NCBI GenBank assembly: GCA_903929765.1 | Contig: CAIYVX010000012.1 | Coordinates: 1 to 41,390 of the forward strand | Length of the DNA: 41,390 nucleotides | Direction of reading: 5' to 3' | Source of the DNA: an uncultured Planctomycetia bacterium | GTDB taxonomy: Bacteria > Planctomycetota > Phycisphaerae > FEN-1346 > JAACEH01 | In this document: one piece after another, positions 14,378-29,684 of the stretch | How the letters are laid out: each line of letters starts with the position of its first letter | Position numbering within the stretch: the stretch's first letter is position 1 | Made by a program: the position numbers and the translations under genes | The notes under the pieces: generated by a model | Seen by the model: the letters and a program-made list of their open reading frames with translations, nothing else | Database searches by the model: none | What the model was told of the DNA's origin: nothing

Positions 14378-14411
14378 TTGCGACCGACAAAATTGTCGGT
14401 ATAATCAGGTC
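14378..14411 (+). promoter_or_regulatory. Promoter with operator in its spacer, sigma-54 activator gene
   Basis: A -35-like TTGCGA (14378-14383) and a perfect TATAAT (14400-14405) are separated by 16 bases. Those 16 bases are exactly the inverted repeat CCGACAA-AA-TTGTCGG (14384-14399). The ATG lies 6 bases after the -10, so the transcript would be leaderless or nearly so; no ribosome site fits between. The same inverted-repeat core recurs upstream of amtB2 and glnA. Its position predicts repression by occlusion, probably autorepression by the encoded activator; this is inference. Confidence 0.7.
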
Positions 14412-15983
14412 ATGTCCAAAACTACCGATCCGGCCGCCGCACCCGACGCCTCGCGCGAACTGCGCCGACTCCAGCTTCTCTACGACGTCTCCGAAACCCT
14501 CTCGCGCAGCATGGACCTCCGCGAAGTCGCCCAGCCCGTCCTCGAAGCCATCGCCGACCGCGCCGGCATGTCGCACGGCACCCTCACCCTCCTCAACCGC
14601 CAGACCGAAGAAATCCTCATCGAGGCCGCCCACGGCCTTTCCGCCGAACAACTCCGCCGCGGCCGCTACCGCGTCGGCGAAGGCATCACCGGCAAAGTCG
14701 TCCAGTCCGGCCAGCCCGCCGTCGTCCGCCGCATCAGCGAGGAACCCCTTTTCCTCAACCGCACCGGGGCCCGCAAGGACATCGCCAAAAAAGACGTTTC
14801 CTTCATCTGCGTCCCCATCAAGCTCGGCCACGATGTTTTCGGGGCCTTGAGCGCCGACCACCTCTACAGCGACGAGGTCAACCTCCGCGAAGACGTGCGG
14901 CTGCTGGGCACCATCGCCTCGATGATCGCCCAGGCCGTCAAAACGCGCCAGGCCGCCGCCGAAGAACGCCAACGCCTCGAAGCCGAAAACCTCCGACTCC
15001 GCGCCGAACTCCGCCAGCGCTGGCAGCCCGCCAACATCATCGGCCGCTCCAACGCCATGCAGAAAATCTACGACCTCATCGCCCAGGTCGCCAAGAGCAC
15101 CGCTACCGTCCTCATTCGCGGCGAGAGCGGCACCGGCAAGGAACTTGTCGCCCACGCCATCCACGCTTCCAGCTCTCGCGCCGACGGGCCGTTCATCAAG
15201 GTCAACTGCGCCGCTCTGCCCGAATCGATCCTCGAAAGCGAGCTTTTCGGCCACGAAAAGGGGGCCTTCACCAACGCCATTGCCGAGCGCCGCGGGCGGT
15301 TCGAGTTGGCCAACAACGGGACCATCTTCCTCGACGAAATCGGCGACTTTGCTCCCGCTTCGCAGATCCGGCTGCTGCGCGTCCTCCAGGAACGCGAGTT
15401 CGAACGCGTCGGCGGCGCCGCCTCCATCAAAACCAACGTCCGCGTCATCGCCGCCACCAACCGCGACCTCGAATCCATGATCCGCGAAGGCAAGTTCCGC
15501 GAAGACCTCTATTACCGCCTCAACGTCTTCCCGATCTTCATTCCGCCGCTGCGGCAGAGGAAGACCGACATCCCGCTTCTGATGGACCATTTTCTGGAGA
15601 AGTATGCGGCGCAGAACCACAAGCGCGTGCGCCGCATCTCCACGCCGGCCATCGACATGCTGATGAGCTACCACTGGCCGGGCAACGTCCGCGAACTGGA
15701 GAACATCATCGAGCGGGCCGTCCTGGTGGCCGACGACGCCGTCATTCGCTCGATCCACCTGCCGCCGACGCTCCAAATGGCCGAGGCCAAGCCGGCCAGC
15801 CTGGCCCTGATCGACCGCGTCGACGAATTCGAACGCGAACTTCTGATCGAGGCCCTCAAGTCGGCTCGCGGCAACATGGCCAAGGCCGCGCGCGAACTCC
15901 AGACCACCGAACGCATCCTCGCCTACAAGGTCCACAAGTACGCCATCGACCGCAAAATCCTCAAGACCGAAATGTCGGCGTGA
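14412..15983 (+). CDS. Sigma-54-dependent activator, GAF-AAA+-Fis (NifA-like)
   Basis: A 523-residue enhancer-binding protein. Residues ~15-180 form a GAF sensor (LLYDVSETLSRSMDLREVAQ through FICVPIKLGHDVFGALSADH). A coiled linker AEERQRLEAENLRLRAEL follows. The AAA+ domain has Walker A GESGTGKE (237-244), Walker B-type IFLDEIGD (305-312), and RLNVFPIFIPPLRQRKTDIP. The C-terminal Fis-type helix-turn-helix includes GNMAKAARELQTTERILAYK. The sigma-54-contacting loop reads GAFTNA (284-289) instead of the usual GAFTGA. No histidine-kinase partner is adjacent. Three sigma-54 promoters of nitrogen genes lie 3-9 kb away, two with an upstream palindrome that also sits in this gene's own promoter, so it is the best candidate regulator of that island. 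GAF ligand is unknown. Confidence 0.93.
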   Translation: MSKTTDPAAAPDASRELRRLQLLYDVSETLSRSMDLREVAQPVLEAIADRAGMSHGTLTLLNRQTEEILIEAAHGLSAEQLRRGRYRVGEGITGKVVQSGQPAVVRRISEEPLFLNRTGARKDIAKKDVSFICVPIKLGHDVFGALSADHLYSDEVNLREDVRLLGTIASMIAQAVKTRQAAAEERQRLEAENLRLRAELRQRWQPANIIGRSNAMQKIYDLIAQVAKSTATVLIRGESGTGKELVAHAIHASSSRADGPFIKVNCAALPESILESELFGHEKGAFTNAIAERRGRFELANNGTIFLDEIGDFAPASQIRLLRVLQEREFERVGGAASIKTNVRVIAATNRDLESMIREGKFREDLYYRLNVFPIFIPPLRQRKTDIPLLMDHFLEKYAAQNHKRVRRISTPAIDMLMSYHWPGNVRELENIIERAVLVADDAVIRSIHLPPTLQMAEAKPASLALIDRVDEFERELLIEALKSARGNMAKAARELQTTERILAYKVHKYAIDRKILKTEMSA

Positions 15984-16064: not shown

Positions 16065-16303
16065 GGTGAGGGTAGGGTGAGGGTGCCGTTGCTGTTTTTG
16101 ATTCATTTCCGTGTATCCCCGTTTTGGGTTTTGTATAGATTCTAGATTTTTTCCGTGGCGGTCAGGGGCGGCTAGCGGCGCGCCGCCCCGCCGGGGCCGC
16201 CTATGAACTCATGCCCCCACCCCAAAAAGTCAGAATCTATACAAAAACTCAAACGGGGATAATCCCAAAGCAACAAAAAACACCCTCACCCTACCCTCTC
16301 CCT
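16065..16303. mobile_element. Non-coding element with ~70-bp inverted repeats (MITE-like)
   Basis: The left arm (16065-16143) and right arm (16232-16303) are imperfect reverse complements over about 70 bases. Shared segments include GGGTAGGGTGAGGGTG, TATCCCCGTTT and TTTTGTATAGATTCT with their complements on the right. The ~85-base centre is very GC-rich (GGCGGCTAGCGGCGCGCCGC) and contains short palindromes. There is no open frame. Size and structure fit a miniature inverted-repeat element, or a very long hairpin after the activator gene. Confidence 0.7.
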
Positions 16304-16358
16304 GGAGGGGAGAGGGTTGAAGAAGAAACAGCGTCCCCCAGCAATGCTGGGGGCTTCT

Positions 16359-16485
16359 AAAGAAGAAGAAAAAGAAGAAGAAAAAAATCGCGCGGGGGGC
16401 GGGTACCGGGGGTTCGTCCCGCAAACAGCAGCGGGACTTCACCCCCGGCTAAAAACTTTCGCCGCTTCGCGGCTGGGCGGGGATG
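16359..16485. repeat. Polypurine-GGTACC repeat module, copy 1
   Basis: An AAG-rich purine run (16359-16387) is followed after ~17 bases by GGGTACCGGGGG, a hairpin closing with CACCCCCGGCTAAA, and a second short hairpin CGCCGCTTCGCGGC. The same three-part order occurs at 17299-17398 and 35584-35675, so this is a dispersed composite repeat rather than chance. Confidence 0.65.
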
Positions 16486-16601
16486 GGTGGACGGGCGGGA
16501 GGGGGCGGGGATGAGGAAACAGGAAAGAAGCAACAACAGCCGGACAGGGCAAAGCCCTGTCCCTACGAGAAGAAGAAGCGGCCATTTGCGGATGGGCCTG
16601 A

Positions 16602-16802
16602 TTACGCTTTCTTTTTGGTTTTCTTGGTTCTCTTGCGACCGGAGCCGCTTTTGTTGCCGCCGCCGGAAAGTTTGTTTACGGTGGCCCAGGCCCGGGCTTC
16701 CGCCGTTTTGGCGCCGACGCCCTTTTTCTCGTAGCCGGTTTCGATATGTTCCGCCTGACGCTTCTGCTTGTCAGTGTAGCTGGATTTATCGCCCTGAGGC
16801 AT
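16602..16802 (-). CDS. Small basic protein of the 'plasmid stabilization'-annotated family
   Basis: A 66-residue protein, MPQGDKSSYTDKQKRQAEHI and then GYEKKGVGAKTAEARAWATV-NKLSGGGNKSG, with a Lys-rich tail ending TKKTKKKA. From memory this matches a widespread small family often labelled 'plasmid stabilization protein', for which I know no demonstrated function. The C-terminal Lys/Arg tail suggests nucleic-acid contact. The ATG follows GGAGGAACCACC, a good ribosome site. It lies downstream of another small gene on the same strand with a 111-base gap that holds a hairpin of the CACACTTTG family. Real gene; role unknown. Confidence 0.8.
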   Translation of the reverse strand: MPQGDKSSYTDKQKRQAEHIETGYEKKGVGAKTAEARAWATVNKLSGGGNKSGSGRKRTKKTKKKA

Positions 16803-16861
16803 TGGTGGTTCCTCCGTTCTGAAAACTGATTACCTCATCAGCGTCACGCCGCCGACCAAGA

Positions 16862-16902
16862 CACACCTTGCCCGGCGATACAGCCCGCCGGGACAAAGTG
16901 TG
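16862..16902. repeat. CACACTTTG-family hairpin
   Basis: CACACCTTGCCCGGCG pairs with CGCCGGGACAAAGTGTG around a 4-6 base loop, followed by GCACCC. It is a diverged member of the family seen at 30467-30505, 34011-34027 and 37436-37474. It separates two small minus-strand genes. Confidence 0.6.
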
Positions 16903-16913
16903 GCACCCAGAGG

Positions 16914-17159
16914 TCAAGGCTTGTTGGCCGGCCGGTTGGTCTGCGTCTGCATGGCCGGCTCGGCGCCGGTATCGTAGTGCTCGAAGGCCTTCGCCAGGCC
17001 TTGCAGGACTTCGGCCGTGGTCTCAAACAGGGCCTGAGCTTTAGGCTCGGTGATCTTCCCCACGTCCTCCCGGCAATGATCCATAGCGTCGGTCAGCATC
17101 CGCTTGATCTTGGCCGTGTGGTGGCGAGGGTCATTCTCGGGGTAATTCTTATCTCCCAT
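16914..17159 (-). CDS. Small conserved hypothetical protein
   Basis: An 81-residue protein, MGDKNYPENDPRHHTAKIKR then MLTDAMDHCREDVGKITEPK and AQALFETTAEVLQGLAKAFE. I recall similar short proteins with the HHTAKI, HCREDV and KITEPKAQALFETTAEVL signature in several bacterial phyla, without known function. The sequence is predicted to be mostly helical with no signal peptide; one Cys and a His pair could bind metal. AAGGAGGATACA precedes the ATG, a strong ribosome site. It probably shares a transcript with the basic protein downstream. Confidence 0.78.
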   Translation of the reverse strand: MGDKNYPENDPRHHTAKIKRMLTDAMDHCREDVGKITEPKAQALFETTAEVLQGLAKAFEHYDTGAEPAMQTQTNRPANKP

Positions 17160-17298
17160 TGTATCCTCCTTGGGTTAGTTAGAGACCGAACCGCATCTTG
17201 CCTTGCGGCCCACGAACGTTTCGAGCCGACCAAGGCAAGTATACCGCCATGGCCGTCTCACCAGTCCTATCTTTCCTTTGTGCGGGGGATGGGACAGC

Positions 17299-17398
17299 AA
17301 AAGAAGAAGAAAAAGAAGAGGAAAAAAATATTTCTCGCGCTTGGGTACCACGGGCTTGCGCCGCGTGGCTACTTCCAGACGCCGCTACGCGGCTAACG
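17299..17398. repeat. Polypurine-GGTACC repeat module, copy 2
   Basis: A purine-rich run of AAG/AGG units ending in AAAAAAA (17299-17329) is followed by GGGTACCACGGGCTTGCGCC, closing with GTGGCTA, and a second hairpin GCCGCTACGCGGC. It has the same order of parts as 16359-16485 and 35584-35675, with compensatory changes in the stems. Confidence 0.65.
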
Positions 17399-17562
17399 GC
17401 AACAACAGAAACCTTTCCCACAAAAATGTAGACCACCTATAGCTACCAAACATTTCTGTCGCCAAGGCACAAACGTCTCCAGGACCGCCCTTCGGGCCAG
17501 TTTTTATTCTAACACCTTCAAAACAAGCCTTTTACGCCGCTGTTGAAACAAATAATTGCTTG

Positions 17563-17578
17563 TGGCACGATCCTTGCT
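17563..17578 (+). promoter_or_regulatory. Sigma-54 promoter (porin-amtB1-glnK1)
   Basis: TGGCACGATCCTTGCT matches the -24/-12 consensus TGGCAC-N5-TTGCW exactly, with GG at 17564-17565 and GC at 17576-17577 (N10 between). Transcription would begin near 17590, giving a ~145-base leader before the porin ATG. It points to nitrogen-type activator-dependent expression of the porin and probably the amtB-glnK pair behind it. Confidence 0.82.
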
Positions 17579-17716: not shown

Positions 17717-17733
17717 AAAGAATGGAGAGAACC

Positions 17734-19116
17734 ATGACCCCGAGGCGAGAAAATAACGGCTTCTCTGTTCCGCTGGCGGCCGAGGCGCCGACGCGCCCCT
17801 TGCCGGAGCGCATCGCCGATTCGCCCGTTTCCTGGGTCGTCGCCGCCATTGTCCTTTCGGTCGTGCTCCTGGCGGCCAGTAACGTTCTGGCCGCTGACAA
17901 TCCGACATCCGCCGCCAGCGCCACGCCAGCCGCCGCAGCTTCCGTCACCACCTCGGTCGCGAACGTCGCCTCCGGCGAACCGGCCCCCGCCGCCTGGCCG
18001 CCCGGACTGATTATGGATGGTCTTGGGGCCGTTGGCGTTCGCAAGCCGCTCGACGAACTGGGCATTCGCACCTACGGCTTCTTTGAAACCGGCTTCACTG
18101 GCAACCTCAACGGCGAAAAATCCGGCTTTGGCCGCGTATTTGATTCGCGGCGCATGGGCGATTGGCGCTTCAATCAGCTCGCTCTCAACATCGACCGGCC
18201 CTATGACAATACCAAGGCCTTCGACTGGGGTTTCCACGTCGAAGGGATGTTCGGCGGCGATGCCATGTTCACCCACGCCTACGGCCTCTTCGACCACGCC
18301 GGCGTCTCGCACACCGACGCCTGGGCCGATCTGACACAATTTTACGCCCAACTCTGGTTCAAGACCGGCACGGACGCGGGACTGGAAACCCAGGTCGGCA
18401 AGTTTGTCACGCCCATGGGGGCCGAGGTCATCGACGCCCCCGGCAACCAGCTTTACTCGCACAGCTACCTGTTCGGCTACGCCATTCCCTACACCAACAC
18501 CGGCGTCAAGGAAACCTATTACTTCAACAAGCAGTTCTCCGCCTATGTCGGGGCCGTCCAAGGCTGGGACGAGTTCCAACCCAGGAACGACGCCTGGAGC
18601 GAAATCGCCGGCTTGGCCCTGGCCGGGGCCGAGCAACTCGACAACCACCCGCGCGACCAGTTCAACTTCAACCTGATCACCGGGCCGGAAGAGCAGGGCG
18701 ACAGTCACGACAACCGGACCGTTCTCGATTTCGTCCTGACGCACTACTGGACCAGTCCGCTCTCCTCGACCCTCAACGCCGACTGGGGCGAAGAGCAGGG
18801 GGGCTCGCCGACCGGCGGGTCGAATCACTGGTACGGTCTGGCCCATTACCTGACCTACGTTATCAACGATTACGTTTCGGCCACCTGGCGGACCGAGTGG
18901 TTCCGCGACGAGGGCGGCAGCCGCATCGGTGTCCGGGGCAACTTCGCCGAAAACACGCTCGGGCTGACCATCACGCCATGTCCGTCGGACAAGGTCTGGA
19001 AAAACCTGTCGGTGCGGCCGGAAATCCGCTGGGATAATTCCGACCAGCGGGTGTTTGACCATGGCACGCGTGAAAACGGGGCCACGGCCGCGGTTGACAT
19101 CATTTTCAAGTTTTAG
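17734..19116 (+). CDS. Outer-membrane beta-barrel porin (BBP2/OmpL-like)
   Basis: A 460-residue secreted protein. The ATG at 17734 has GGAGAGA just before it; an ATG at 17722 would destroy that site's role. A ~35-residue charged N-terminal stretch precedes the hydrophobic signal core WVVAAIVLSVVLLAASNVLA, with cleavage after ALA likely. An Ala/Pro/Ser linker follows, then alternating strands with RTYGFFETGFTGN, FYAQLWFKTGTDAGLETQVG, FVTPMGAEVIDAPGNQLYSH and YLFGYAIPYTNTGVKETYYF, and a terminal Phe (AVDIIFKF) as in beta-barrels. This matches BBP2-type porins. Being under a sigma-54 promoter and just before amtB, it may admit ammonium or small nitrogen compounds across the outer membrane; that is inference. 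Confidence 0.85.
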   Translation: MTPRRENNGFSVPLAAEAPTRPLPERIADSPVSWVVAAIVLSVVLLAASNVLAADNPTSAASATPAAAASVTTSVANVASGEPAPAAWPPGLIMDGLGAVGVRKPLDELGIRTYGFFETGFTGNLNGEKSGFGRVFDSRRMGDWRFNQLALNIDRPYDNTKAFDWGFHVEGMFGGDAMFTHAYGLFDHAGVSHTDAWADLTQFYAQLWFKTGTDAGLETQVGKFVTPMGAEVIDAPGNQLYSHSYLFGYAIPYTNTGVKETYYFNKQFSAYVGAVQGWDEFQPRNDAWSEIAGLALAGAEQLDNHPRDQFNFNLITGPEEQGDSHDNRTVLDFVLTHYWTSPLSSTLNADWGEEQGGSPTGGSNHWYGLAHYLTYVINDYVSATWRTEWFRDEGGSRIGVRGNFAENTLGLTITPCPSDKVWKNLSVRPEIRWDNSDQRVFDHGTRENGATAAVDIIFKF

Positions 19117-19200
19117 CAGTCACAGGGACGTCCGGCAGAACAAAGAAGAACACGGTCGGACAAGCCGACCGTGGCACATAATAAGGAGAGATTTACAGCA

Positions 19201-20631
19201 ATGAAATACAAGAGCACAGTGGGCCTCGCGGCCCTGTTCGTCGGACTTCTGGCCACAGTCGCCTCGGCCGCAGATTCGGCCATCCCGGCGGTCCCGGCCG
19301 TGGCCGCCACTTCGGCGTTGCCGGCGGTCTCGGCCACGACCTCGGCGGCCGCGCCGGTCGATCCGATGGCGGCCATCAACTCCGGCGACACGGCCTGGGT
19401 GCTGATCGGGGCCGCGCTGGTCATGCTGATGACCCCCGGCCTGGCCTTCTTCTACGGCGGCCTGGTGCGGCGCAAGAACGTCCTGTCGGTGCTGATGCAG
19501 TGCATGATGCTCCTGTGCCTGATCAGCGTGCAGTGGGTGCTCTTCGGGTACTCTCTGGCCTTCGGTCCCGACTTCCACCACTTCATCGGGAATCTGGACT
19601 GGATCGGCTCGCTGCCGGGCTTCGGACTCGCTCCGAACGCCGACTATGCCGCCACCGTGCCGCACCTGGCCTTCATGATCTTCCAGATGATGTTCGCCGT
19701 GATTACCCCGGCCCTGATTCTCGGGGCCTTCGCCGAACGGATGCGGTTCGGCCCGTTCTGCATTTTCTCGCTGCTCTGGGCGACCGTGGTTTACGACCCG
19801 GTCTGCCACTGGGTCTGGAGCAACGCGGGCGGCGTGCCCGGTTTCCTCAAGGGCATGGGCGCACTGGATTTTGCCGGCGGCACGGTTGTCCATATCAACG
19901 CCGGCGTGGCCGCCCTGGCCTGTGCCCTGTACCTGGGCAAACGCAAGGGTTTCCCGGACAAGATTTCCCCGCCACACAGTCTGCCGTTCGCCGTGCTGGG
20001 GGCGGCGCTCTTGTGGTTCGGCTGGTTCGGATTTAATGCCGGCAGCGCCCTGGCTGCCGGGGGCAGCCTGGCCACCACGGCTTTCGTGGCCACGCACGTG
20101 GCCACGGCCATGGCGGGGCTGATGTGGGCCTTGATGGACTGGTTCTTCCACAAGCGGCCGACCATCCTGGGCATCATCACCGGGGCCGTGGCCGGGCTGG
20201 TCGCCATTACCCCGGCCGCAGGCTTTGTCACCCCGCTGGGCGCCTTGGCCATCGGCATCATGGTCGGGATCATCTGCTGGATTTCGGTCACGTTCGTCAA
20301 GGTCAAGTTCGGCTACGACGATTCGCTCGACGCCTTCGGCGTCCACGGCGTGGGCGGGGCCGTGGGGGCCGTGGCCACCGGCCTGTTCGCCTGCGTGGCC
20401 ATTAATTCGGTTGCCAACGGTGGCAACAACGGCCTGTTCTACGGCAACCCCGGCCAGCTTTGGATTCAGATCAAGGCCGTTGGTTGCAGCGCCGGCTACT
20501 CTTTCGTCGTCTCTCTCATCCTGCTCAAGCTGGTGGACCTGGTGTTCAAACTCCGGGTCACGGAAACCGAGGAGCGGATCGGCCTCGACCTGACCGAGCA
20601 CCGCGAAGTCGGGTACACGATGATCGATTAG
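19201..20631 (+). CDS. amtB: Ammonium transporter AmtB (copy 1)
   Basis: A 476-residue Amt channel with signal peptide (AALFVGLLATVASA), a ~40-residue Ala/Pro/Val linker and 11 helices beginning at DTAWVLIGAALVMLMTPGLA. Diagnostic segments: FFYGGLVRRKNVLSVLMQC; WATVVYDPVCHWVW with the conserved Asp; FAGGTVVHINAGVAALA with the first pore His; DAFGVHGVGGAVGAVATG with the second; and a cytosolic tail ending DLTEHREVGYTMID, the PII-binding region. AAGGAGAG lies 9-12 bases before the ATG at 19201. It imports ammonium and is blocked by PII. It has no sigma-54 site of its own, lies 84 bases after the porin, and probably is cotranscribed with it and glnK1. Confidence 0.96.
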   Translation: MKYKSTVGLAALFVGLLATVASAADSAIPAVPAVAATSALPAVSATTSAAAPVDPMAAINSGDTAWVLIGAALVMLMTPGLAFFYGGLVRRKNVLSVLMQCMMLLCLISVQWVLFGYSLAFGPDFHHFIGNLDWIGSLPGFGLAPNADYAATVPHLAFMIFQMMFAVITPALILGAFAERMRFGPFCIFSLLWATVVYDPVCHWVWSNAGGVPGFLKGMGALDFAGGTVVHINAGVAALACALYLGKRKGFPDKISPPHSLPFAVLGAALLWFGWFGFNAGSALAAGGSLATTAFVATHVATAMAGLMWALMDWFFHKRPTILGIITGAVAGLVAITPAAGFVTPLGALAIGIMVGIICWISVTFVKVKFGYDDSLDAFGVHGVGGAVGAVATGLFACVAINSVANGGNNGLFYGNPGQLWIQIKAVGCSAGYSFVVSLILLKLVDLVFKLRVTETEERIGLDLTEHREVGYTMID

Positions 20632-20768: not shown

Positions 20769-21110
20769 ATGAAATACGTGATTGCCGTGATTCAACCGGA
20801 CCGCTTGGACGACGTGCTCGACGAATTGACCCGCCGCGAGATTCACCTGGTCACCGTCACCAGCGTCCTCGGGCGCGGCCGGCAGAAGGGGGTGGCCGAG
20901 GTCTACCGCTCCCACACGGAGGTCGGCAGCCTGCTGAAGAAGATCAAGTTGGAAATAGCGGTCAACGATCAGTACCTGGGCGCCACGATCGAGGCCATTA
21001 CCAAAGGCGCCCGGACCGGCAACGTCGGCGACGGGAAAATCTTCGTCCTCGAACTTTGCGAATGCACGCGCATCCGCACCGGTGAGACCGGCGGCCTGGC
21101 CATCGGGTGA
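20769..21110 (+). CDS. glnK: PII signal protein GlnK/GlnB (copy 1)
   Basis: A 113-residue PII protein of normal length with an AAAAAGGAA ribosome site. The T-loop reads GRQKGVAEVYRSHTEVG (37-53): Tyr46 is present but position 51, the Tyr uridylylated by GlnD in E. coli, is Glu. The B-loop ARTGNVGDGKIFVLEL and C-loop RIRTGETGGLAIG keep ATP- and 2-oxoglutarate-binding residues. Linkage to amtB implies direct gating of the channel according to 2-oxoglutarate and ADP/ATP. The lack of Tyr51 argues against classical uridylylation; Ser48 or Thr50 could be other modification sites, but that is speculative. A small hairpin with a weak T-run follows (21165-21184). Confidence 0.96.
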   Translation: MKYVIAVIQPDRLDDVLDELTRREIHLVTVTSVLGRGRQKGVAEVYRSHTEVGSLLKKIKLEIAVNDQYLGATIEAITKGARTGNVGDGKIFVLELCECTRIRTGETGGLAIG

Positions 21111-21164
21111 CAGCCCGTTGAAGTAGAAACACCAGGGGCAAGATGCCAGTGCCACGGTGAAAAA

Positions 21165-21184
21165 AAACTACAACTTCGTAGTTT
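21165..21184 (+). terminator. Possible terminator after glnK1
   Basis: AAACTAC-AACTTC-GTAGTTT makes a 7-bp stem with a 6-base loop 55 bases after the glnK1 stop; an A-run precedes it and only TTT closes it, so termination would be weak. It separates the first operon from the amtB2 control region. Confidence 0.45.
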
Positions 21185-21195
21185 GCCTATGCAGT

Positions 21196-21215
21196 CTCTG
21201 ACAAAATTGTCAGAG
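21196..21215. promoter_or_regulatory. Inverted-repeat UAS upstream of amtB2
   Basis: CTCTGACAA-AA-TTGTCAGAG is a perfect 9-2-9 inverted repeat, the best copy of the family. Its centre is 110 bases upstream of the -24 element of the amtB2 sigma-54 promoter, the usual distance for an enhancer bound by a sigma-54 activator. The core GACAAAATTGTC is shared with 14384-14399 and nearly with 23477-23492. Confidence 0.75.
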
Positions 21216-21313
21216 TCGCAGTTCGCGGATTTATTGGTCTGCGGCAGACATTTTTCGTAACTCCTCTTTCCGCCGCTTGTTATCTGCGGTTTGGGATCAT
21301 TTCTTTCTGCGCG

Positions 21314-21329
21314 CGGCACGACTCTTGCA
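21314..21329 (+). promoter_or_regulatory. Sigma-54 promoter (amtB2)
   Basis: CGGCACGACTCTTGCA has GG at 21315-21316 and GC at 21327-21328 with exactly ten bases between, and matches the -24/-12 consensus at all key positions. Transcription would start near 21340, leaving a ~108-base leader before the amtB2 ATG. Confidence 0.85.
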
Positions 21330-21447
21330 CCGTCTGCTCTTCCCGACTGCTCCTGCCAGACACAGGAACGCGGTTACACTTCCCCTGCGACCGAACTGCG
21401 GTTGCGACCGCTCTCTGTCTGGCCGGATGCAGATCAGAGGGATCGCT

Positions 21448-22818
21448 ATGACAGCCGACGTTTTTTCATACCGGCGTGCCCGGCCGGCGATTCGCGGGCT
21501 GCTCCTGGCCGGTCTGGCCGCCACTCTGACGGTCGTGCCCGCCTCGGCCGCCTGGGCCCAGGATCAGGGCAAAACCCCGGCCATCGACAAGGCCGACACG
21601 GCCTGGGTGCTCCTCGGCGCCGCCCTGGTCCTGCTTATGACCCCGGCCCTGGCGTTCTTCTACGGCGGGTTGGTGCGGCGCAAGAATATCCTCTCGGTCC
21701 TGATGCAGTGCCTGATGCTCATGTGCCTGATCAGCGTCCAGTGGATTTTCTTCGGTTACAGCCTGGCCTTCGGCCCGGACCATCACGGCCTGATCGGCGA
21801 CTTCAGTTGGCTCGGCCTGAGCGGCGTCGGGGTGGCGCCGAATCCGGACTATGCCGACACAGTGCCCCAGCAGGCTTTCATGATCTTCCAGTGCATGTTT
21901 GCCATTATCACCCCCGGCCTGATCATCGGGGCCTTCGCCGAGCGCATCCGCTTCGCCCCGTTCTGTATCTTCTCGCTCCTCTGGGCCACGATTGTTTACG
22001 ATCCGATCGCCCATTGGGTCTGGGGCCACAACGGCTTTCTGGCCGCGATGGGCGTCAAGGACTTCGCCGGCGGCATCGTCGTCCACGTCAACGCCGGCAT
22101 GTGCGCCCTGGCCGCCGCCCTGTTTCTCGGCCGCCGGCACGGTTATCCCACCAAGATCAGCCCGCCGCACAGTTTGCCCTTCGCCGTCCTGGGCGCGGGG
22201 CTGCTCTGGTTCGGCTGGTTCGGGTTCAACGCCGGCAGCGCCCTGAAGGCCGACGGTCTGGCCACGAGCGCCTTCGTCGCTACCCACGCCGCCGGGGCCG
22301 TGGCTGGATTGGTCTGGGCCTTGTGCGACTGGGCCTATTTCAAGCGTTCCACGGTCCTGGGCATGATTACCGGGGCCATCGCCGGATTGGCGGCGGTCAC
22401 CCCGGCGGCCGGTTTCGTCGGACCGTTGCCTGCGGCGGCCATCGGCGTGCTGGCCGGGGCCATCTGCTGGCTCTCGGTCACCTTTATCAAGACCCGCCTC
22501 GGCTACGACGATTCGCTCGACGCTTTCGGCGTCCACGGCGTCGGCGGCATCATCGGCTCCCTGGCCGTCGGCCTCTGGGCCTCCACGGCCATCAACCCGG
22601 CCCCGGCCGGCGCTGACGGGTTGTTCTACGGTCACGCCGGACAACTCGGCACGCAGGCCGTCGGCGTGCTGATTTGCGGCGCTTACTCGTTTGGCGTTTC
22701 GCTGATTCTGTTCAAGGTCGTTGACCTGGTCTTCAAGCTCCGCGTCAGCGAGAAGGACGAGCGGATCGGCCTTGACCTGACCCAGCACCGCGAAGTCGGG
22801 TACACGATGATCGACTGA
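21448..22818 (+). CDS. amtB: Ammonium transporter AmtB (copy 2)
   Basis: A 456-residue Amt protein. ATG at 21448 is preceded by AGAGGGA; ATG at 21427 is an alternative adding seven residues. The signal peptide contains IRGLLLAGLAATLTVVPASA with likely cleavage after AWA; the linker to the first helix is much shorter than in copy 1. Conserved parts: FFYGGLVRRKNILSVLMQC, WATIVYDPIAHWVWG, FAGGIVVHVNAGMCALA and DAFGVHGVGGIIGSLAVG with both pore His residues, and the same C-terminal tail HREVGYTMID. It is clearly a paralogue of copy 1 by tandem duplication with its PII partner, but has its own sigma-54 promoter and enhancer. Confidence 0.96.
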   Translation: MTADVFSYRRARPAIRGLLLAGLAATLTVVPASAAWAQDQGKTPAIDKADTAWVLLGAALVLLMTPALAFFYGGLVRRKNILSVLMQCLMLMCLISVQWIFFGYSLAFGPDHHGLIGDFSWLGLSGVGVAPNPDYADTVPQQAFMIFQCMFAIITPGLIIGAFAERIRFAPFCIFSLLWATIVYDPIAHWVWGHNGFLAAMGVKDFAGGIVVHVNAGMCALAAALFLGRRHGYPTKISPPHSLPFAVLGAGLLWFGWFGFNAGSALKADGLATSAFVATHAAGAVAGLVWALCDWAYFKRSTVLGMITGAIAGLAAVTPAAGFVGPLPAAAIGVLAGAICWLSVTFIKTRLGYDDSLDAFGVHGVGGIIGSLAVGLWASTAINPAPAGADGLFYGHAGQLGTQAVGVLICGAYSFGVSLILFKVVDLVFKLRVSEKDERIGLDLTQHREVGYTMID

Positions 22819-23121
22819 GAGGGCTGGAATTAAACCCTGAGGGGTGGCATGGCGGCGCTGTTTGCCGCCATGTTCAGGGCGGAGGATGTGCCACGGCGGG
22901 TCTGGTTCCGCAGTGACGCCAAAAAATTAACTACTCTCTGGATTTCACCCGGCTTTTTCGGGTATCATTCGGGGCCTAGCGTAGTGCTTCAGTCGGATGG
23001 CACATTATCATCGAGGCTGTACGGGGCCGAACTCCCCTGAACATGGCGGCAAACAGCGCCGCCATGCCACCCGAATAATGTGCGATAATTCAGCAGCACT
23101 ACACTATCGAGGGACGCGAAC
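22819..23121. mobile_element. Nested inverted-repeat element between amtB2 and glnK2
   Basis: Two exact 34-base reverse complements lie at 22842-22875 and 23039-23072 (beginning GGGTGGCATGGCGGC and ending GCCGCCATGCCACCC). A second pair of imperfect inverted ends, around 22979-23012 (AGCGTAGTGCTTCAG... CACATTAT) and 23073-23110 (ATAATGTG... CAGCACTACACTATCGA), brackets the right copy. No gene is seen; a 63-codon frame at 22849 is made by the repeat. No sigma-54 site precedes glnK2, so it is either read from amtB2 through this structure or from an unseen promoter. Confidence 0.7.
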
Positions 23122-23463
23122 ATGAAATATATCATAGCCGTGATTCAACCGGACCGCCTGGACGACGTACTCGACGAGTTGAACCGTCGGGAAATCCACC
23201 TGGTCACCGTGACCAGCGTTCTCGGTCGCGGCCGGCAGAAGGGCGTGGCTGAAGTTTACCGCTCCCATACGGAAGCCGGCAGCCTGCTGCGGAAGATCAA
23301 GCTGGAAATCGCGGTCAACGATCAGTTTGTCGCCCCGACCATCGAGGCCATTACCACGACCGCCCGCACCGGCAACGTCGGCGACGGAAAAATTTTCGTT
23401 CTCGACCTGGCCGAGTGCATCCGCATCCGTACCGGCGAAACCGGCGGCGTGGCCATCGGGTAG
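23122..23463 (+). CDS. glnK: PII signal protein GlnK/GlnB (copy 2)
   Basis: A 113-residue PII protein, differing from copy 1 at relatively few positions, with GAGGGACG as ribosome site. The T-loop GRQKGVAEVYRSHTEAG again has Tyr46 but Glu at 51. Thus both paralogues lack the GlnD target, suggesting an ancestral trait of this lineage rather than a single mutation. B-loop ARTGNVGDGKIFVLDL and C-loop RIRTGETGGVAIG are intact. It presumably regulates AmtB copy 2 by inserting the T-loop into the channel; possibly also GlnA or the sigma-54 activator. Distance from amtB2 (303 bases with an inserted element) makes separate expression possible. Confidence 0.95.
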   Translation: MKYIIAVIQPDRLDDVLDELNRREIHLVTVTSVLGRGRQKGVAEVYRSHTEAGSLLRKIKLEIAVNDQFVAPTIEAITTTARTGNVGDGKIFVLDLAECIRIRTGETGGVAIG

Positions 23464-23476
23464 GCCTTCGACCGGT

Positions 23477-23492
23477 CTGACAAAATCGTCGG
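23477..23492. promoter_or_regulatory. Inverted-repeat UAS upstream of glnA
   Basis: CTGACAA-AA-TCGTCGG is a slightly imperfect copy of the repeat at 14384-14399 and 21196-21215 (one mismatch between arms apart from the Y/R position). Its centre is about 128 bases upstream of the -24 element of the glnA promoter. Same type of position as at amtB2, consistent with an activator-binding enhancer. Confidence 0.65.
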
Positions 23493-23611: not shown

Positions 23612-23627
23612 TGGCACGGGCTTTGCG
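23612..23627 (+). promoter_or_regulatory. Sigma-54 promoter (glnA)
   Basis: TGGCACGGGCTTTGCG has GG at 23613-23614 and GC at 23625-23626 with ten bases between, a full -24/-12 match. Predicted start near 23638, leaving a ~108-base leader, similar to amtB2. Confidence 0.85.
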
Positions 23628-23745: not shown

Positions 23746-25074
23746 ATGAGCATGAACAAGCAAGCCGTGATGAAAGCCGTTTCTGACAATAATGTGAAGT
23801 TCATCCGCCTCTGGTTCACCGACGTTCTGGGCGTGCTCAAGAGCTTCGCCATCACCGTCGAGGAACTCGACGAGGCGATGAACGAAGGCATGGGCTTCGA
23901 CGCCTCGTCGATCGAAGGCTTCGCCCGCATTCACGAGAGCGACATGATCGCCCTGCCCGATCCGAGCACCTTCACGCTGCTGCCCTGGCGGCCGCAGGGC
24001 GAGTCGGGCGTGGCCCGCATGTTCTGCGACGTCATGACGCCGCACGGCGAGCACTATGAAGGCGACCCGCGCTGGGTACTCAAACGCAACCTGGCCGAAG
24101 CGGCCAAGCTCGGCTACACCTTCTACACCGGACCGGAACTGGAGTTCTTCTACTTCAAAGACTCCTGCTGCACTGAAGTCCTGGACCAGGGCGGCTACTT
24201 CGACCTGACACCGCTGGACGTGGCCTCGAACCTGCGGCGCGATACGGTCCTGGCCCTGGAAGCCATGGGCATCCACGTCGAATACTCGCATCACGAAGTC
24301 GCCCCCAGCCAGCACGAGATCGACCTGCGCTACGATGAGGCCCTGACCATGGCCGACAAGGCCATGACCTACCGCCTGACGGTCAAGGAAATCGCCATGC
24401 AGAACGGCGTTTACGCGACCTTCATGCCCAAGCCGATTTTCGGCGAGAACGGTTCCGGCATGCACGTTCACCAGTCGCTCTTCAAAGGCAAGAAGAACGC
24501 CTTCCACGACGGCAAAGACAAGAACGGCCTCTCGAAGGAAGGTCGCAGCTACATCGCCGGCCTGCTGAAGCACTCGCGGGAAATCTGCTCCATCGTCGCC
24601 CAGTACGTCAACAGCTACAAGCGGCTGGTGCCGGGCTACGAAGCCCCGGTCTACGTCGCCTGGGCGCAGCGGAACCGTTCGGCCCTGGTCCGCGTCCCGA
24701 TGTACAAGCCCGGCAAGGAAAAGGCGACCCGGGCCGAGTTCCGTTGCCCCGATCCGGCCTGCAACCCGTACCTGGCCTTCTCGGTCATGCTGGCCGCCGG
24801 TCTCAAGGGCATCAAGGAAGGCTACCACCTGGCCGAACCGGTCGAGGAAGACATTTTTGAAATGACCGACGCCGAGAAGAAGTCGCACAAGATCGAAGCC
24901 CTGCCGGGCAGCCTGGACGAAGCCGTCAACCTGACCGCCAAGAGCGAACTCGTCCGCGAGTGCCTCGGCGATCACGTGTTCGAGAAGTTCATCGCCAACA
25001 AGCGCATCGAATGGGACCGCTTCCGGACCCATGTCAGCCAGTTCGAGCTGGAAAACTATCTGCCGATTCTCTAA
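23746..25074 (+). CDS. glnA: Glutamine synthetase, type I (alpha-like)
   Basis: A 442-residue GSI; length equals the GSI-alpha group (about 444) rather than the ~470 of adenylylated GSI-beta. Start ATG follows AAAGAGGAGAA. Conserved parts: FTDVLGVLKSF; GFDASSIEGFARIHESDM with Arg61, equivalent to the feedback-sensing Arg62 of the Bacillus enzyme; TGPELEFFYF (metal site); the His flap region NGSGMHVHQSLF; NRSALVRVPMY; and RAEFRCPDPACNPYLAF. The adenylylation-loop Tyr (Tyr397 of E. coli) corresponds to Phe371 in EEDIFEMTDAEK. It makes glutamine from glutamate, ammonium and ATP. It has its own sigma-54 promoter and enhancer, and ends in a hairpin. Confidence 0.97.
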   Translation: MSMNKQAVMKAVSDNNVKFIRLWFTDVLGVLKSFAITVEELDEAMNEGMGFDASSIEGFARIHESDMIALPDPSTFTLLPWRPQGESGVARMFCDVMTPHGEHYEGDPRWVLKRNLAEAAKLGYTFYTGPELEFFYFKDSCCTEVLDQGGYFDLTPLDVASNLRRDTVLALEAMGIHVEYSHHEVAPSQHEIDLRYDEALTMADKAMTYRLTVKEIAMQNGVYATFMPKPIFGENGSGMHVHQSLFKGKKNAFHDGKDKNGLSKEGRSYIAGLLKHSREICSIVAQYVNSYKRLVPGYEAPVYVAWAQRNRSALVRVPMYKPGKEKATRAEFRCPDPACNPYLAFSVMLAAGLKGIKEGYHLAEPVEEDIFEMTDAEKKSHKIEALPGSLDEAVNLTAKSELVRECLGDHVFEKFIANKRIEWDRFRTHVSQFELENYLPIL

Positions 25075-25281: not shown

Positions 25282-26442
25282 ATGGACGACGCTCAGACCA
25301 TTCCCGACGACCAGTGGCGCCCGGACCGCCACCAGAAATCCCAGCGCGATGAAAAAGATCAGAGCGGCTGCGCCATCTGCGGCCTCCTGAACGAGGACGG
25401 CTCGCTGGTCGATGGCGGGCTGATCATTCGTGCCATCGCCAACATGCACGACCGTTCCAACGGGCTGGGCGGCGGCTTTGCCGCCTACGGCATTTATCCC
25501 CAGTGGAAATCCTGGTACGCCTTTCATCTGATGTTCGACCACGACGCCGCGCGCCGCCAGACGGAAAGCTATCTGGAGACCGTCTTCCAGGTCGCCCACC
25601 AGGAAGCCATTCCCACGGCCCACCTGGAAGTGATCCGCCAGCGGCCGATCCTGGTCCGCTATTTTCTGCTGCCCAAAGAGGAACTCCGGGCCCGCCACTA
25701 CGACCTGACCGACGACGACATCGTCATGATGAACGTCATGCACATCAATAAGACCATCGACGGGGCCTTCGTCTTCTCCTCCGGCCGCAACATGGGCTGT
25801 TTCAAGGGCGTCGGGTACCCCGAGGACATCGGCCGCTTCTACCGGCTCGACGAATACCAGGCCCACCTCTGGACCGCTCATGGCCGCTTTCCGACCAACA
25901 CCACCGGCTGGTGGGGCGGGGCCCATCCGTTCGGCATTCTCGACTGGGCCGTCGTCCACAACGGCGAGGTCTCCAGCTACGGCAAGAACCGGTCCTACCT
26001 GGCCAACTTCGGCTACCAGTGCACCATGCACACCGACACCGAAGTCATCGGCTACCTCTTCGACCTCCTGGTCCGCAAGCATCACCTGCCCATCGAAATG
26101 GCCTGCCAGGCCGTCGCCCCGCCGCTCTGGAGCCGCATCGAACAGATGCCGCCCGCCGAGCGCCAGTTGCTCCAGACCCTGCGGATCATCTATGGCGGCG
26201 CGCTGCTCAACGGACCGTTCAGCATCGTCGTCTCTCACGCCGGCGGCCTGATCGGCCTGAACGACCGCATCAAACTCCGGCCCATGGTGGCCGCCCGACG
26301 CGGCGCTTCGCTCTACGTGGCCAGCGAGGAAGCCGCCCTGCGGCTCATGTGTCCCAGCCCCGACCTGATCTGGCGTCCCGCCGGCGGCGTGCCCGTCATC
26401 GGCCGGCTCCAGAGCCAGCCCCAGGAGGTGTCCGTTGCGTAA
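25282..26442 (+). CDS. Glutamate synthase glutaminase domain protein (class II amidotransferase)
   Basis: A 386-residue class II (Ntn) glutamine amidotransferase, equal to domain 1 of glutamate synthase as a separate protein. The probable catalytic Cys is Cys30 in SGCAICGLLNEDGS, implying removal of a 29-residue propeptide or a mis-set start; GAGGTGTAATAG fits the ATG at 25282. Further landmarks: NMHDRSNGLGGGFAAYG; TAHGRFPTNTTGWWGGAHPF; and VVHNGEVSSYGKNRSYL, which carry the glutamine-binding Arg and oxyanion Asn-Gly. It releases ammonia from glutamine for the FMN subunit. Archaeal-type glutamate synthases use such split proteins. Stop overlaps the next gene by eight bases. Confidence 0.9.
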   Translation: MDDAQTIPDDQWRPDRHQKSQRDEKDQSGCAICGLLNEDGSLVDGGLIIRAIANMHDRSNGLGGGFAAYGIYPQWKSWYAFHLMFDHDAARRQTESYLETVFQVAHQEAIPTAHLEVIRQRPILVRYFLLPKEELRARHYDLTDDDIVMMNVMHINKTIDGAFVFSSGRNMGCFKGVGYPEDIGRFYRLDEYQAHLWTAHGRFPTNTTGWWGGAHPFGILDWAVVHNGEVSSYGKNRSYLANFGYQCTMHTDTEVIGYLFDLLVRKHHLPIEMACQAVAPPLWSRIEQMPPAERQLLQTLRIIYGGALLNGPFSIVVSHAGGLIGLNDRIKLRPMVAARRGASLYVASEEAALRLMCPSPDLIWRPAGGVPVIGRLQSQPQEVSVA

Positions 26443-27952
26443 GTGGCTGGTCGAACCCGATTTCATCCTGACCCGCGACCCGGACCGGTGCATCAACTGC
26501 CAGGTCTGCGTCCGCCAGTGCGCCAACGACGTCCACGTTCACGACGAGGAAGCCGACCTGGTTCAGAGCGACAGCGAAAAGTGCGTCGGCTGCCATCGCT
26601 GTGCCGCGCTCTGCCCCACCCAGGCCATCAGCATTGAAAAGGCCTCGCTCGAATTCCGCCCCAACGGCAACTGGACCGCCGACCGCATTCGCGCGGTCTA
26701 TAAACAGGCCGAGGGTGGCGGCATTCTCCTCTCCGGCATGGGCAACGACCAGACGCTTCCCGTGCTCTGGGATCACATGGTTCTCAACGCCAGCCAGGTC
26801 ACCAACCCGTCCATCGACCCGCTCCGCGAACCGATGGAACTGGTGACATATCTCGGCCGCAAGCCCGACCGGCTGGAACTCAATCGTGACGCCAACGGCA
26901 AGGTCAGCCTGGCCACCGAGTTGGCTCCGCAACTGCGTCTGGAAACGCCGATCATGTTCTCGGCCATGAGCTATGGCTCGATCAGCTACAACGCCTCGTT
27001 CTCTCTGGCCCGCGCCGCCCAGGCCGCCGGCACCTTCGCCAACACCGGCGAGGGCGGACTGCACAAGGATTTCCGCCCATACGCCAAGAACCTGATCGTG
27101 CAGGTCGCCTCGGGCCGCTTCGGCGTCGATCCCGATTATCTCAACGTTGCCGCGGCGGTGGAAATCAAGATCGGGCAGGGGGCCAAGCCCGGCATCGGCG
27201 GGCACCTGCCGGCCGAAAAAGTCGACGCCCAGGTGAGTGCCACGCGCATGATCCCCGAACGGACCGACGCCCTCAGCCCGGCGCCGCACCACGATATCTA
27301 TTCCATCGAAGACCTGCGGCAACTTATCTACGGCATCAAGGAAGCCACGCAGTACACCAAGCCGGTCTGCGTCAAGATCAGCGCCGTGCACAACGTCGCG
27401 GCCATCGCCTCGGGGGCCGTCCGGGCCGGGGCCGACATCGTGGCCATCGACGGGTTCCGCGGCGGCACCGGGGCGGCGCCCACGGTCATCCGCGACAACG
27501 TCGGCATTCCCATCGAACTGGCCCTGGCCGCCGTCGACGCCCGCCTGCGCGACGAAGGCATCCGCCACCAGGCCTCCATCGTCGCCGCCGGGAGCTTCCG
27601 CTCCTCCGCCGACGTGATCAAGGCCATCGCCCTGGGGGCCGACGCCGTTTACATCGGCACGGCGGCGCTGGTGGCCATGGGCTGCCACCTCTGCCAGAAA
27701 TGTTACACCGGAAAATGCAACTGGGGCATCGCCACCCAGGACCCCATGCTCACCAAGCGCCTCAACGCCGATGTCGCCACGCGCCGGCTGTCGAACTTGC
27801 TGCGCGGCTGGTCGCTGGAGATCAAGGAAATGCTCGGCGGCATGGGCATCAACGCCATCGAAAGTTTGCGCGGCAATCGCGAGCACCTGCGCGGCATCGC
27901 CCTGAGCGACCGCGATTTGAACATCCTCGGCATCAAGGCCGCGGGAGAATAA
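26435..27952 (+). CDS. Glutamate synthase FMN/Fe-S synthase domain protein (archaeal type)
   Basis: A 505-residue protein. TTG start at 26435 with AGGAGGTG at proper distance; the previous stop lies just inside. An N-terminal double 4Fe-4S ferredoxin module has CINCQVCVRQC (Cys19-29) and CVGCHRCAALCP (Cys50-60). The FMN barrel follows: PIMFSAMSYGSISYNASFSL, NTGEGGLHKDF, KIGQGAKPGIGGHLP, VCVKISAVHN, AGADIVAIDGFRGGTGAAPT and ALGADAVYIGTAALVAMGCH. The 3Fe-4S loop CHLCQKCYTGKCNWGIATQD comes next. It condenses ammonia with 2-oxoglutarate and reduces the imine to glutamate. The added ferredoxin domain is typical of archaeal and some anaerobe enzymes, not of proteobacterial GltB. Confidence 0.94.
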   Translation: MRKWLVEPDFILTRDPDRCINCQVCVRQCANDVHVHDEEADLVQSDSEKCVGCHRCAALCPTQAISIEKASLEFRPNGNWTADRIRAVYKQAEGGGILLSGMGNDQTLPVLWDHMVLNASQVTNPSIDPLREPMELVTYLGRKPDRLELNRDANGKVSLATELAPQLRLETPIMFSAMSYGSISYNASFSLARAAQAAGTFANTGEGGLHKDFRPYAKNLIVQVASGRFGVDPDYLNVAAAVEIKIGQGAKPGIGGHLPAEKVDAQVSATRMIPERTDALSPAPHHDIYSIEDLRQLIYGIKEATQYTKPVCVKISAVHNVAAIASGAVRAGADIVAIDGFRGGTGAAPTVIRDNVGIPIELALAAVDARLRDEGIRHQASIVAAGSFRSSADVIKAIALGADAVYIGTAALVAMGCHLCQKCYTGKCNWGIATQDPMLTKRLNADVATRRLSNLLRGWSLEIKEMLGGMGINAIESLRGNREHLRGIALSDRDLNILGIKAAGE

Positions 27953-28407: not shown

Positions 28408-29684
28408 ACTACCTGGTCATCGGAAATTCCGCCGCCGCCGTCGGTGCTGTCGAAGGCATCCGCTCGGTTGACGCCGAGGGCAAAATCACCCTCCTGGCCG
28501 CCGAGCCGGACCACACTTATTCGCGGCCGCTGATTTCCTATCTGCTGGCCGGCAAAGTCGGTCCGGAGCGCCTCGACTATCGCCCCGCCGACTTCTACGA
28601 AAAATTCAAAGTTGAGGCCAAACTCGGCCAGGAAGTCGTCGCCGTAGACACCGCCGCTCACACTGTCGCCACCAAGGCCGGCGAAAAGTTTTCCTACGAC
28701 CGCCTGCTCATCGCCACCGGCGGCCGGCCGTTCGTCCCGGAAATCGCCGGCCTCGCGGGCGCGCGCGGCGCGTTCACCTTCACCGCTCTCGACGACGCCC
28801 GCCGCATCGACCAATACCTGAAAGAATCCGCCGTCAAAGAGGCCGTCGTCCTCGGCGGCGGCATGATCGGCCTGAAGGCCGCCGAAGCGCTCCTGGCGCG
28901 CGGCCTCCAGGTCACGGTCGTCGAACTGGCCGACCGCCTCCTCTCCACCAGCTTCGACCGGGCGGCCAGCGAACTCCTGGAAGCTGCGCTCGAGCGCCGC
29001 CACGCCGCCGTCTGCCTGGGCGGCACCGTCGAGAAAGTTATCGCCAACAATGGCGCCGTTTCCGCCGTCAGCCTCACCGGCGGGCGGGAACTGGCCTGCC
29101 AACTTCTCGTCGTCGCCATCGGCGTCGTGCCCAACGTCGAATTTCTGAAATCCTCCGGCCTCAAGCTTGGCCGCGGCCTCGTCGTTGACGACCACCTGCG
29201 CACCTCGGCCCCCGACGTTTACGCCGCCGGCGACGTGGTCGAAGGCTGGGACTTCCTCGCCGAAACCAAACGGCCGCTGCCGATCCTGCCGCTGGCCTGC
29301 CGCCAGGGCCGCATCGCCGGTTGCAACATGGCCGGCCGCGACGAAAGCTACCTCGGCGGCATGCCCATGAACGCCATCGAAATCTGCGATCTGCCGACCA
29401 TCTCCGTCGGCCTGGCCAACGCCTCCGGCGAACCTTACGAAGTTCTCGCGGTCCGCAACCCGGAGCGCCGCACTTACCGCAAAGTCGTCCTCCGCGAAAA
29501 CAAAATCGTCGGCCTGATTCTCATCGGCGACATCGACCGCGCCGGCATCTTCACCGGCCTGATCGAAAACAAGGTCGACGTCGGGCCGATCAAGCATCTG
29601 CTCCTCGCCGAGGAGTTCGGCCTGCTCTCGCTCGACAGCGAATATCGCAAGCACATGGTCAGTGGACCGGGAATCGAAGTATGA
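28404..29684 (+). CDS. FAD/NAD(P)-dependent oxidoreductase of the glutamate synthase operon
   Basis: A 426-residue pyridine-nucleotide disulfide-type reductase, similar to the nitrite-reductase/rubredoxin-reductase group. GTG start overlaps the ferredoxin stop. FAD site VIGNSAAAVGAVEGI; FSYDRLLIATGGRPFVPEI; NAD(P) site VVLGGGMIGLKAAEALLARG; second FAD contact PDVYAAGDVVEGWD. No redox-active Cys pair is evident. It would take electrons from NAD(P)H and give them to the neighbouring polyferredoxin for glutamate synthesis, in place of the GltD subunit of the bacterial enzyme. The specificity for NADH or NADPH cannot be read safely. It overlaps the next gene by ATGA. Confidence 0.9.
   Translation: MNYLVIGNSAAAVGAVEGIRSVDAEGKITLLAAEPDHTYSRPLISYLLAGKVGPERLDYRPADFYEKFKVEAKLGQEVVAVDTAAHTVATKAGEKFSYDRLLIATGGRPFVPEIAGLAGARGAFTFTALDDARRIDQYLKESAVKEAVVLGGGMIGLKAAEALLARGLQVTVVELADRLLSTSFDRAASELLEAALERRHAAVCLGGTVEKVIANNGAVSAVSLTGGRELACQLLVVAIGVVPNVEFLKSSGLKLGRGLVVDDHLRTSAPDVYAAGDVVEGWDFLAETKRPLPILPLACRQGRIAGCNMAGRDESYLGGMPMNAIEICDLPTISVGLANASGEPYEVLAVRNPERRTYRKVVLRENKIVGLILIGDIDRAGIFTGLIENKVDVGPIKHLLLAEEFGLLSLDSEYRKHMVSGPGIEV

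Follow-up and report, generated by a model that had tools for sequence, protein, structure and literature searches.

The 41,390-nucleotide stretch analysed here, called the window throughout, is contig CAIYVX010000012.1 (positions 1 to 41,390, forward strand) of assembly GCA_903929765.1, the genome of an uncultured Planctomycetia bacterium (3.83 Mb in 116 contigs, 96% complete). It carries two genes for PII proteins, each directly 3' of a gene for an ammonium transporter, AmtB, and our subject is residue 51 in the T-loop of these proteins, which is glutamate in both. The two gene pairs are arranged as follows.

19171-20631, plus strand: ammonium transporter gene amtB copy 1, partner of GlnK copy 1 (open reading frame; likely start ATG 19201)
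20769-21110, plus strand: PII (GlnK) copy 1, 113 amino acids, Glu at 51 (open reading frame, NCBIfam P-II, Pfam PF00543 at 84.5 bits)
20901-20921, plus strand: T-loop VYRSHTE of copy 1 (residues 45-51), codon 51 being GAG at 20919-20921
21277-22818, plus strand: ammonium transporter gene amtB copy 2, partner of GlnK copy 2 (open reading frame; likely start ATG 21427 or 21448, behind a sigma-54 site)
23122-23463, plus strand: PII (GlnK) copy 2, 113 amino acids, Glu at 51 (open reading frame, NCBIfam P-II)
23254-23274, plus strand: T-loop VYRSHTE of copy 2 (residues 45-51), codon 51 being GAA at 23272-23274

The P-II domain spans the whole protein in both copies, which are identical at 99 of 113 residues, and copy 1 aligns without gaps to Escherichia coli GlnK (46% identity) with Glu51 opposite Tyr51. 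A preliminary description of this DNA, made from the sequence alone, had reported Glu51 within VYRSHTE in both copies, and the open reading frames together with this alignment confirm it. Both copies also keep T29, G37, R38, Q39, G41, K58, A64, G87, D88, G89, K90, R101 and R103, residues presumed to contact ATP/ADP and 2-oxoglutarate, and the earlier claim that the nucleotide- and 2-oxoglutarate-binding loops are intact holds for both. Arg47, at the tip of the T-loop, is likewise present in each. Most of the listed residues are named as ligand contacts for a methanogen GlnK (PMC8395244). With a P-II domain, these ligand residues, Arg47 and an adjoining amtB gene, the window PII proteins are of GlnK type, and beyond the two copies there was no further match to PF00543 in the genome.

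The conservation of residue 51 was read on a tree of 170 PII rows, built on the 89 columns left after removal of the T-loop. Duplicate rows were dropped, as were L001 and L002, which copy the window, and the second frame of L079 and L151, both for their large gaps; with so few columns the tree's finer forks are unresolved. One branch of 76 rows, the window PII proteins among them, has Glu51 in 71, the remainder having Asp, Gln, Ala, Ser or Val, and by record title it spans about ten phyla (Planctomycetota, Lentisphaerota, Kiritimatiellota, Omnitrophota, Fibrobacterota, Acidobacteriota, Actinomycetota, Spirochaetota, Myxococcota and others). Tyr46, Arg47 and Lys58 are present in all 76 rows, and Gly53 in 69. 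In the sister branch of 30 rows residue 51 is F, I, V, T, L or H, with a single E, and this drift among hydrophobic residues would fit the proposal that Glu51 is itself neutral drift after the loss of GlnD, with no role; so would three tandem paralogues within the Glu51 branch, whose residue 51 varies between A, S and V. We nevertheless regard that proposal as unlikely, because Glu is kept in 71 of 76 rows across so many phyla, with one Asp and one Gln among the few exceptions, which is not what chance would leave. Judged from the alignment, Glu51 is conserved rather than drifting, and it is held in this branch of PII.

In L033, L042 and L104 a second PII, with the T-loop HQYRGLK and Ser, Ala or Val at 51, adjoins the Glu51 PII and is a paralogue that has lost Glu51. 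Glu51 amtB-glnK pairs also lie near nif-type PII genes in L014, L043, L044, L057 and L276. Among the carriers of a Glu51 PII is one that can be cultivated, the bacterium of the record titled Planctomycetales bacterium ZRK34 (CP050848). A plasmid search for relatives returned only matches below 60% identity.

An unknown enzyme replacing GlnD might instead modify the T-loop elsewhere, and the preliminary description had put forward Ser48, Thr50 and Tyr46 as substitute residues. Ser48 is found in both window copies and in 30 of the 76 branch rows, and in cyanobacterial PII Ser49 is phosphorylated (PMC4285133); however, position 48 is Gly in the other 46 rows, and position 50, which is Thr in the window, is Thr in 4 rows and Lys in 59. 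Since neither Ser48 nor Thr50 is conserved, modification there is unlikely, and we rejected both as substitute sites. Tyr46 is uninformative: it stands in all 76 rows, but Tyr51 PII proteins of the ordinary kind, which are modified at 51, have it too. Modification elsewhere in the T-loop is on this evidence highly improbable.

GlnD was sought with PF08335, a domain common to GlnD and GlnE, the matches being sorted by NCBIfam; E. coli, Caulobacter and Corynebacterium, used as controls, matched as expected. The search covered 61 genomes, the window's own and those of 60 relatives. The own genome, at its 96% completeness, gave no match, and hence neither GlnD nor GlnE was found in it, which answers the check for glnD that the preliminary description had proposed. 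Matches occurred in only 2 of the 61 genomes and both were GlnE, so that GlnD was found neither in the window's genome nor in its relatives. PII was present in 43 of the 61, and in the canonical PII rows read from the relatives residue 51 is M, V, F, I, L, E, S, N or T; ten fetched places that gave no PII row (L141, L143-L150 and L152) were left out of this reading. The sole Tyr51 row read in the class is a nif-type PII that lacks Tyr46. With no Tyr51 in the canonical rows, a PII without this tyrosine is the norm for the class. The window PII proteins thus show neither mark of a GlnD-modified PII, having no Tyr51 and no GlnD match in the genome, and the earlier statement that GlnD control cannot operate at residue 51 stands. 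The oddity which that statement implied was overstated, since many PII proteins are thought to work unmodified (PMC4285133).

A wider set of host genomes allowed the presence of Tyr51 to be set against that of GlnD. The first host set comprised 48 genomes of loci L005-L054, without L013 and with L019 and L034 sharing one genome; the host of L053, counted among these hosts of Glu51 loci, has Gln51 at its locus. PF08335 matched in 11 of the 48 and in 17 of 30 further host genomes; among the seven hosts of L055-L061, which also belong to the Glu51 hosts, it matched in one. The only Glu51 host with GlnD proper by NCBIfam is G084, with GlnE beside it, and another, G073, has a divergent GlnD-like frame. 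The matches in G063, G075, G078, G086, G087, G091, G092 and G096 are GlnE or GlnE-like by NCBIfam, and that in G095 is spurious. GlnD was found in all seven hosts of Tyr51 loci (L071, L076 and L080-L084). A Tyr51 PII was present in 11 of 12 genomes with GlnD versus none of 13 without, a count that takes in 21 hosts read genome-wide and G134-G138, five of the 12, where PII was read at the locus only, that omits G073 (its Tyr51 row has Trp46), and for which the weaker PII matches G120:C1, G122:C31, G124:C249 and G096:C269 were left unread. G130 has both a Tyr51 PII and a Glu51 PII.

Some of the GlnE-like proteins had features of their own. Those of L155 and L156 (Verrucomicrobia hosts), L157 and L158 (Acidobacteriota hosts), L161 and L162 also match the C-terminal part of GlnD models, presumably the part in which the glutamine-sensing ACT domains lie, and no ACT domain was matched in them by Pfam. 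If GlnE senses glutamine itself, modified PII would not be needed. In G086 and G087 a region matching GlnD models lies about 200 bp or less from the Glu51 PII gene, on the opposite strand. The spurious match in G095 (L163) is a weak one within an open frame of 10,977 codons that has a glycoside-hydrolase-like part.

The residue at position 51 goes with the type of channel encoded beside it. Among 98 amtB-PII neighbour pairs, 67 with Glu, Asp or Gln at 51 and 31 with another residue, identity to the window's AmtB reaches 55% or more in 66 of the 67 and does not exceed 52% in any of the 31, and the same rule holds between pairs within single loci (L015, L025, L026, L054 and L055). An acidic or amide residue 51 is therefore co-inherited with AmtB type. 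Position 38 of AmtB, numbered as in E. coli AmtB after removal of its signal peptide, lies in the loop that follows helix 1, a loop we take to face the cytoplasm. It is Lys or Arg in 66 of the 67 pairs versus 3 of the 31, and from this we infer a contact between Glu51 and residue 38 of AmtB. In G001, a genome of the same family as the window's, glnA, gltB1 and gltB2 are 80%, 71% and 86% identical to those of the window, while both amtB-glnK pairs just before glnA-gltB (L272, 4971-13999) are of the other type, with AmtB 36-38% identical and Phe51 and Val51 in PII; the like glnA-gltB cluster with pairs of the other type shows channel and PII to have been exchanged as a unit. In the open-access literature we found no description of the Glu51 branch of PII or of its AmtB, subscription literature lying mostly outside that search. 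Numerous PII proteins are already known to lack Tyr51, and a conserved Glu51 that comes with its own AmtB partner is a variation on that theme.

Set beside known systems, the window PII proteins resemble E. coli GlnK, which is uridylylated at Tyr51 by GlnD, in their ligand residues, Arg47 and pairing with amtB, and differ from it in Glu51, in the lack of a detectable GlnD and in the gene order amtB-glnK. They resemble the unmodified GlnK of archaea and Firmicutes, which is believed to need only nucleotide and 2-oxoglutarate for its control of Amt (PMC4285133, PMC8395244), but Methanosarcina GlnK1 keeps Tyr at 51 where the window has a conserved Glu. A solved PII without Tyr51 also exists in 1ufl and related entries (YRGTTV), with Val at 51 in place of Glu; we assume its organism to be Thermus.

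The reading we favour, and consider probable, is that these GlnK proteins are switched by metabolites alone, with no covalent modification, and that Glu51 is held by matching to a cognate AmtB subfamily. Each GlnK-type trimer would gate the AmtB encoded just upstream: at high 2-oxoglutarate with Mg-ATP the T-loop would be drawn off AmtB and the channel would open, whereas on a drop in 2-oxoglutarate with ADP bound Arg47 of the T-loop would plug the channel. In the absence of a GlnD to act on it, Tyr51 would not have been retained. Glu51 would be held, probably by a fit between the T-loop of this branch and the branch's own AmtB subfamily, the one with Lys or Arg at 38. Metabolite gating is the simplest reading of the intact ligand residues and may be expected in this organism. 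Control by small molecules alone had been suggested in the preliminary description, and it fits Radchenko 2014 (PMC4274968), where E. coli GlnK Tyr51Ala binds and leaves AmtB normally both in vitro and in vivo and AmtB is still controlled by ATP, ADP and 2-oxoglutarate. In the same vein, Merrick 2015 (PMC4285133) has many PII proteins probably unmodified, and control of AmtB independent of modification. What is lost without GlnD is the glutamine input to PII.

A bolder proposal, and in our judgement a distinctly unlikely one, is that Glu51 is a permanent stand-in for the T-loop charge that uridylylation confers. Targets that require PII to be unmodified, for instance a NifA-type GAF domain, would thereby be barred to it, and Lys or Arg at 38 of the cognate AmtB would restore binding to the channel; the charge pair would insulate PII to one AmtB subfamily, and the cassette would move between phyla as a unit.

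Several points count against control by metabolites with Glu51 matched to AmtB. The window's assembly is 96% complete, and the host genomes reached via their loci come without a completeness figure. Support for the Glu51 branch is modest (SH-aLRT 86, on 89 columns). G084 is an exception, with a GlnD fragment and yet only a Glu51 PII found in it. Three AmtB proteins with Arg38 are paired with Val51 or Phe51 PII, and the Glu51 PII of L019 is paired with an Ala38 AmtB. Finally, the pairs are related by descent and are not 98 independent events, which inflates the Fisher p and makes the channel association a lead, not proof of contact.

The amtB-glnK pairs stand between a porin gene and genes for ammonium assimilation.

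17722-19116, plus strand: beta-barrel porin (BBP2), head of the first transcription unit (profile match)
23746-25074, plus strand: glutamine synthetase type I, with Phe where E. coli GlnA has the adenylylated Tyr (profile match, alignment)
25282-26442, plus strand: glutamine amidotransferase class-II part of a split glutamate synthase (profile match)
26435-27952, plus strand: FMN/4Fe-4S part of the split glutamate synthase (profile match)
29321-30445, plus strand: GXGXG part of the split glutamate synthase (open reading frame; true start may lie further in)

The adenylylation site of E. coli GlnA we take to be residue 398 (397 without Met). The window glutamine synthetase has Phe there, and the genome has no GlnE by PF08335, so the enzyme lacks what marks a GlnE target. 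With Glu51 in PII and this Phe in glutamine synthetase, the two proteins on which the classical double cascade acts both lack the residue that it is known to modify.

It is conceivable that PII binds and stabilises the neighbouring glutamine synthetase, as GlnK1 of Methanosarcina mazei does, given that the best solved-structure matches of the window PII and glutamine synthetase are M. mazei GlnK1 and its glutamine synthetase, the complex 8tge among them. In that enzyme Arg20 and Asp21 hold the T-loop of GlnK1 (PMC10651883), and these contacts are not kept in the window, whose glutamine synthetase has Asn at the aligned positions (the numbering offset being inferred); Arg21 in the core of GlnK1 likewise aligns with Asp18 of the window PII. 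Binding in the M. mazei manner was accordingly rejected, and we think stabilisation of the synthetase by PII very unlikely.

Upstream lies a gene for a NifA-like activator, with promoter-like sites and palindromes distributed through the cluster.

14384-14399, strand-neutral: palindrome CCGACAAAATTGTCGG at the start of the activator gene, candidate operator
14412-15983, plus strand: NifA-like sigma-54 activator with GAF, AAA+ and Fis-type HTH domains (NCBIfam NifA 548.2 bits, cut-off 528.85)
17417-17432, strand-neutral: weak candidate operator CCCACAAAAATGTAGA, 146 bp before the porin sigma-54 site
17563-17578, plus strand: sigma-54 promoter-like site, no mismatch, ahead of the porin gene (pattern search)
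21198-21213, strand-neutral: palindrome CTGACAAAATTGTCAG, 116 bp before the amtB2 sigma-54 site
21314-21329, plus strand: sigma-54 promoter-like site, one mismatch, ahead of amtB copy 2 (pattern search)
23477-23492, strand-neutral: palindrome CTGACAAAATCGTCGG, 135 bp before the glnA sigma-54 site
23612-23627, plus strand: sigma-54 promoter-like site, one mismatch, ahead of glnA (pattern search)

Between the activator and porin genes, 16238-17400 holds few long open reading frames, A/G-rich runs (aagaagaaga) and repeats.

Like the NifA/AnfA-type activators under PII control, the window activator has the domain order GAF, AAA+, HTH and a NifA score over the NCBIfam cut-off; it differs in that its genome has no nifH over the family cut-off, for which reason nitrogenase was rejected as its target, and in that its candidate sites lie at ammonium-assimilation genes. 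The motif TGT-N10-ACA, which we take to be the classical NifA upstream site, does not occur in the window. None of 43 matches in the genome exceeded the NCBIfam NtrC cut-off; several NtrC-family regulators are present, the best at 423 bits, and there may therefore be an NtrBC-like system.

Sigma-54-like sites with at most one mismatch number three in the 41 kb, a count of at least three being reached in 3 of 100 shuffles as well. Over all loci such sites are about 40 times denser near amtB starts (38 in 77,543 bp versus 25 in 2,070,383 bp), and they occur at 37 of the 98 pairs, namely 26 of the 67 with Glu, Asp or Gln at 51 and 11 of the 31 others; with similar shares in both pair types, sigma-54 control is not special to the Glu51 type. 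The palindrome CYGACAAAATTGTCRG, at up to one mismatch, is confined within the 3.83 Mb genome to the activator gene and the amtB2 and glnA promoters. Because these three sites themselves supplied the pattern, the number of hits is not independent, but the absence of any further hit is. Once two mismatches are allowed, the count does not clearly exceed that of the reversed control. L060, from a genome of the same taxonomic order as the window's, carries the palindromes TCCTACAGTGTGGTAGGA and TCCTACTTTGTGGTAGGA, each 93 bp before the amtB2 and glnA sigma-54 sites, and like-built palindromes occur in L274, L021 and L077, while several other activator-bearing loci have none. As a letter-for-letter motif in other genomes the palindrome was rejected: with one mismatch allowed, just three of 80 other loci had it (L022, L071 and L073). 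What some relatives have in common with the window is only the layout, 5-base arms and a 6-base spacer about 93-146 bp before a sigma-54 site. Given the palindromes, one at the activator gene itself and one ahead of each of two sigma-54 promoters in the cluster, and no nifH over the cut-off, the activator looks like a NifA-type general nitrogen regulator that would also control itself.

The activator lies 4.8 kb before PII copy 1, and PII might act mainly on it, via the GAF domain, and not on AmtB, in which case Glu51 would matter for transcription. In Rhodopseudomonas palustris an unmodified PII (Y51F) inhibits the NifA homologue AnfA, probably via its GAF domain (PMC12093980). The activator, however, also adjoins amtB-glnK pairs of the other type (L065, L072, L073, L075, L077, L078 and L079) and is absent within 8 kb of most Glu51 pairs, and so does not track Glu51. 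An action chiefly on the activator seems to us unlikely, and we retain control by metabolites with Glu51 matched to AmtB.

Since PII without covalent modification is already known, the missing tyrosine alone teaches little. What is useful is the clear match between Tyr51 and GlnD across the genomes examined, and the finding that, in a PII branch of many phyla, the modification site holds an acidic residue that is conserved and tied to one AmtB subfamily. Together with the cluster's NifA-like activator in a genome with no nifH over the cut-off, these offer a candidate route for nitrogen control without GlnD, and a testable idea of how PII-channel pairs may stay specific where one genome has several.

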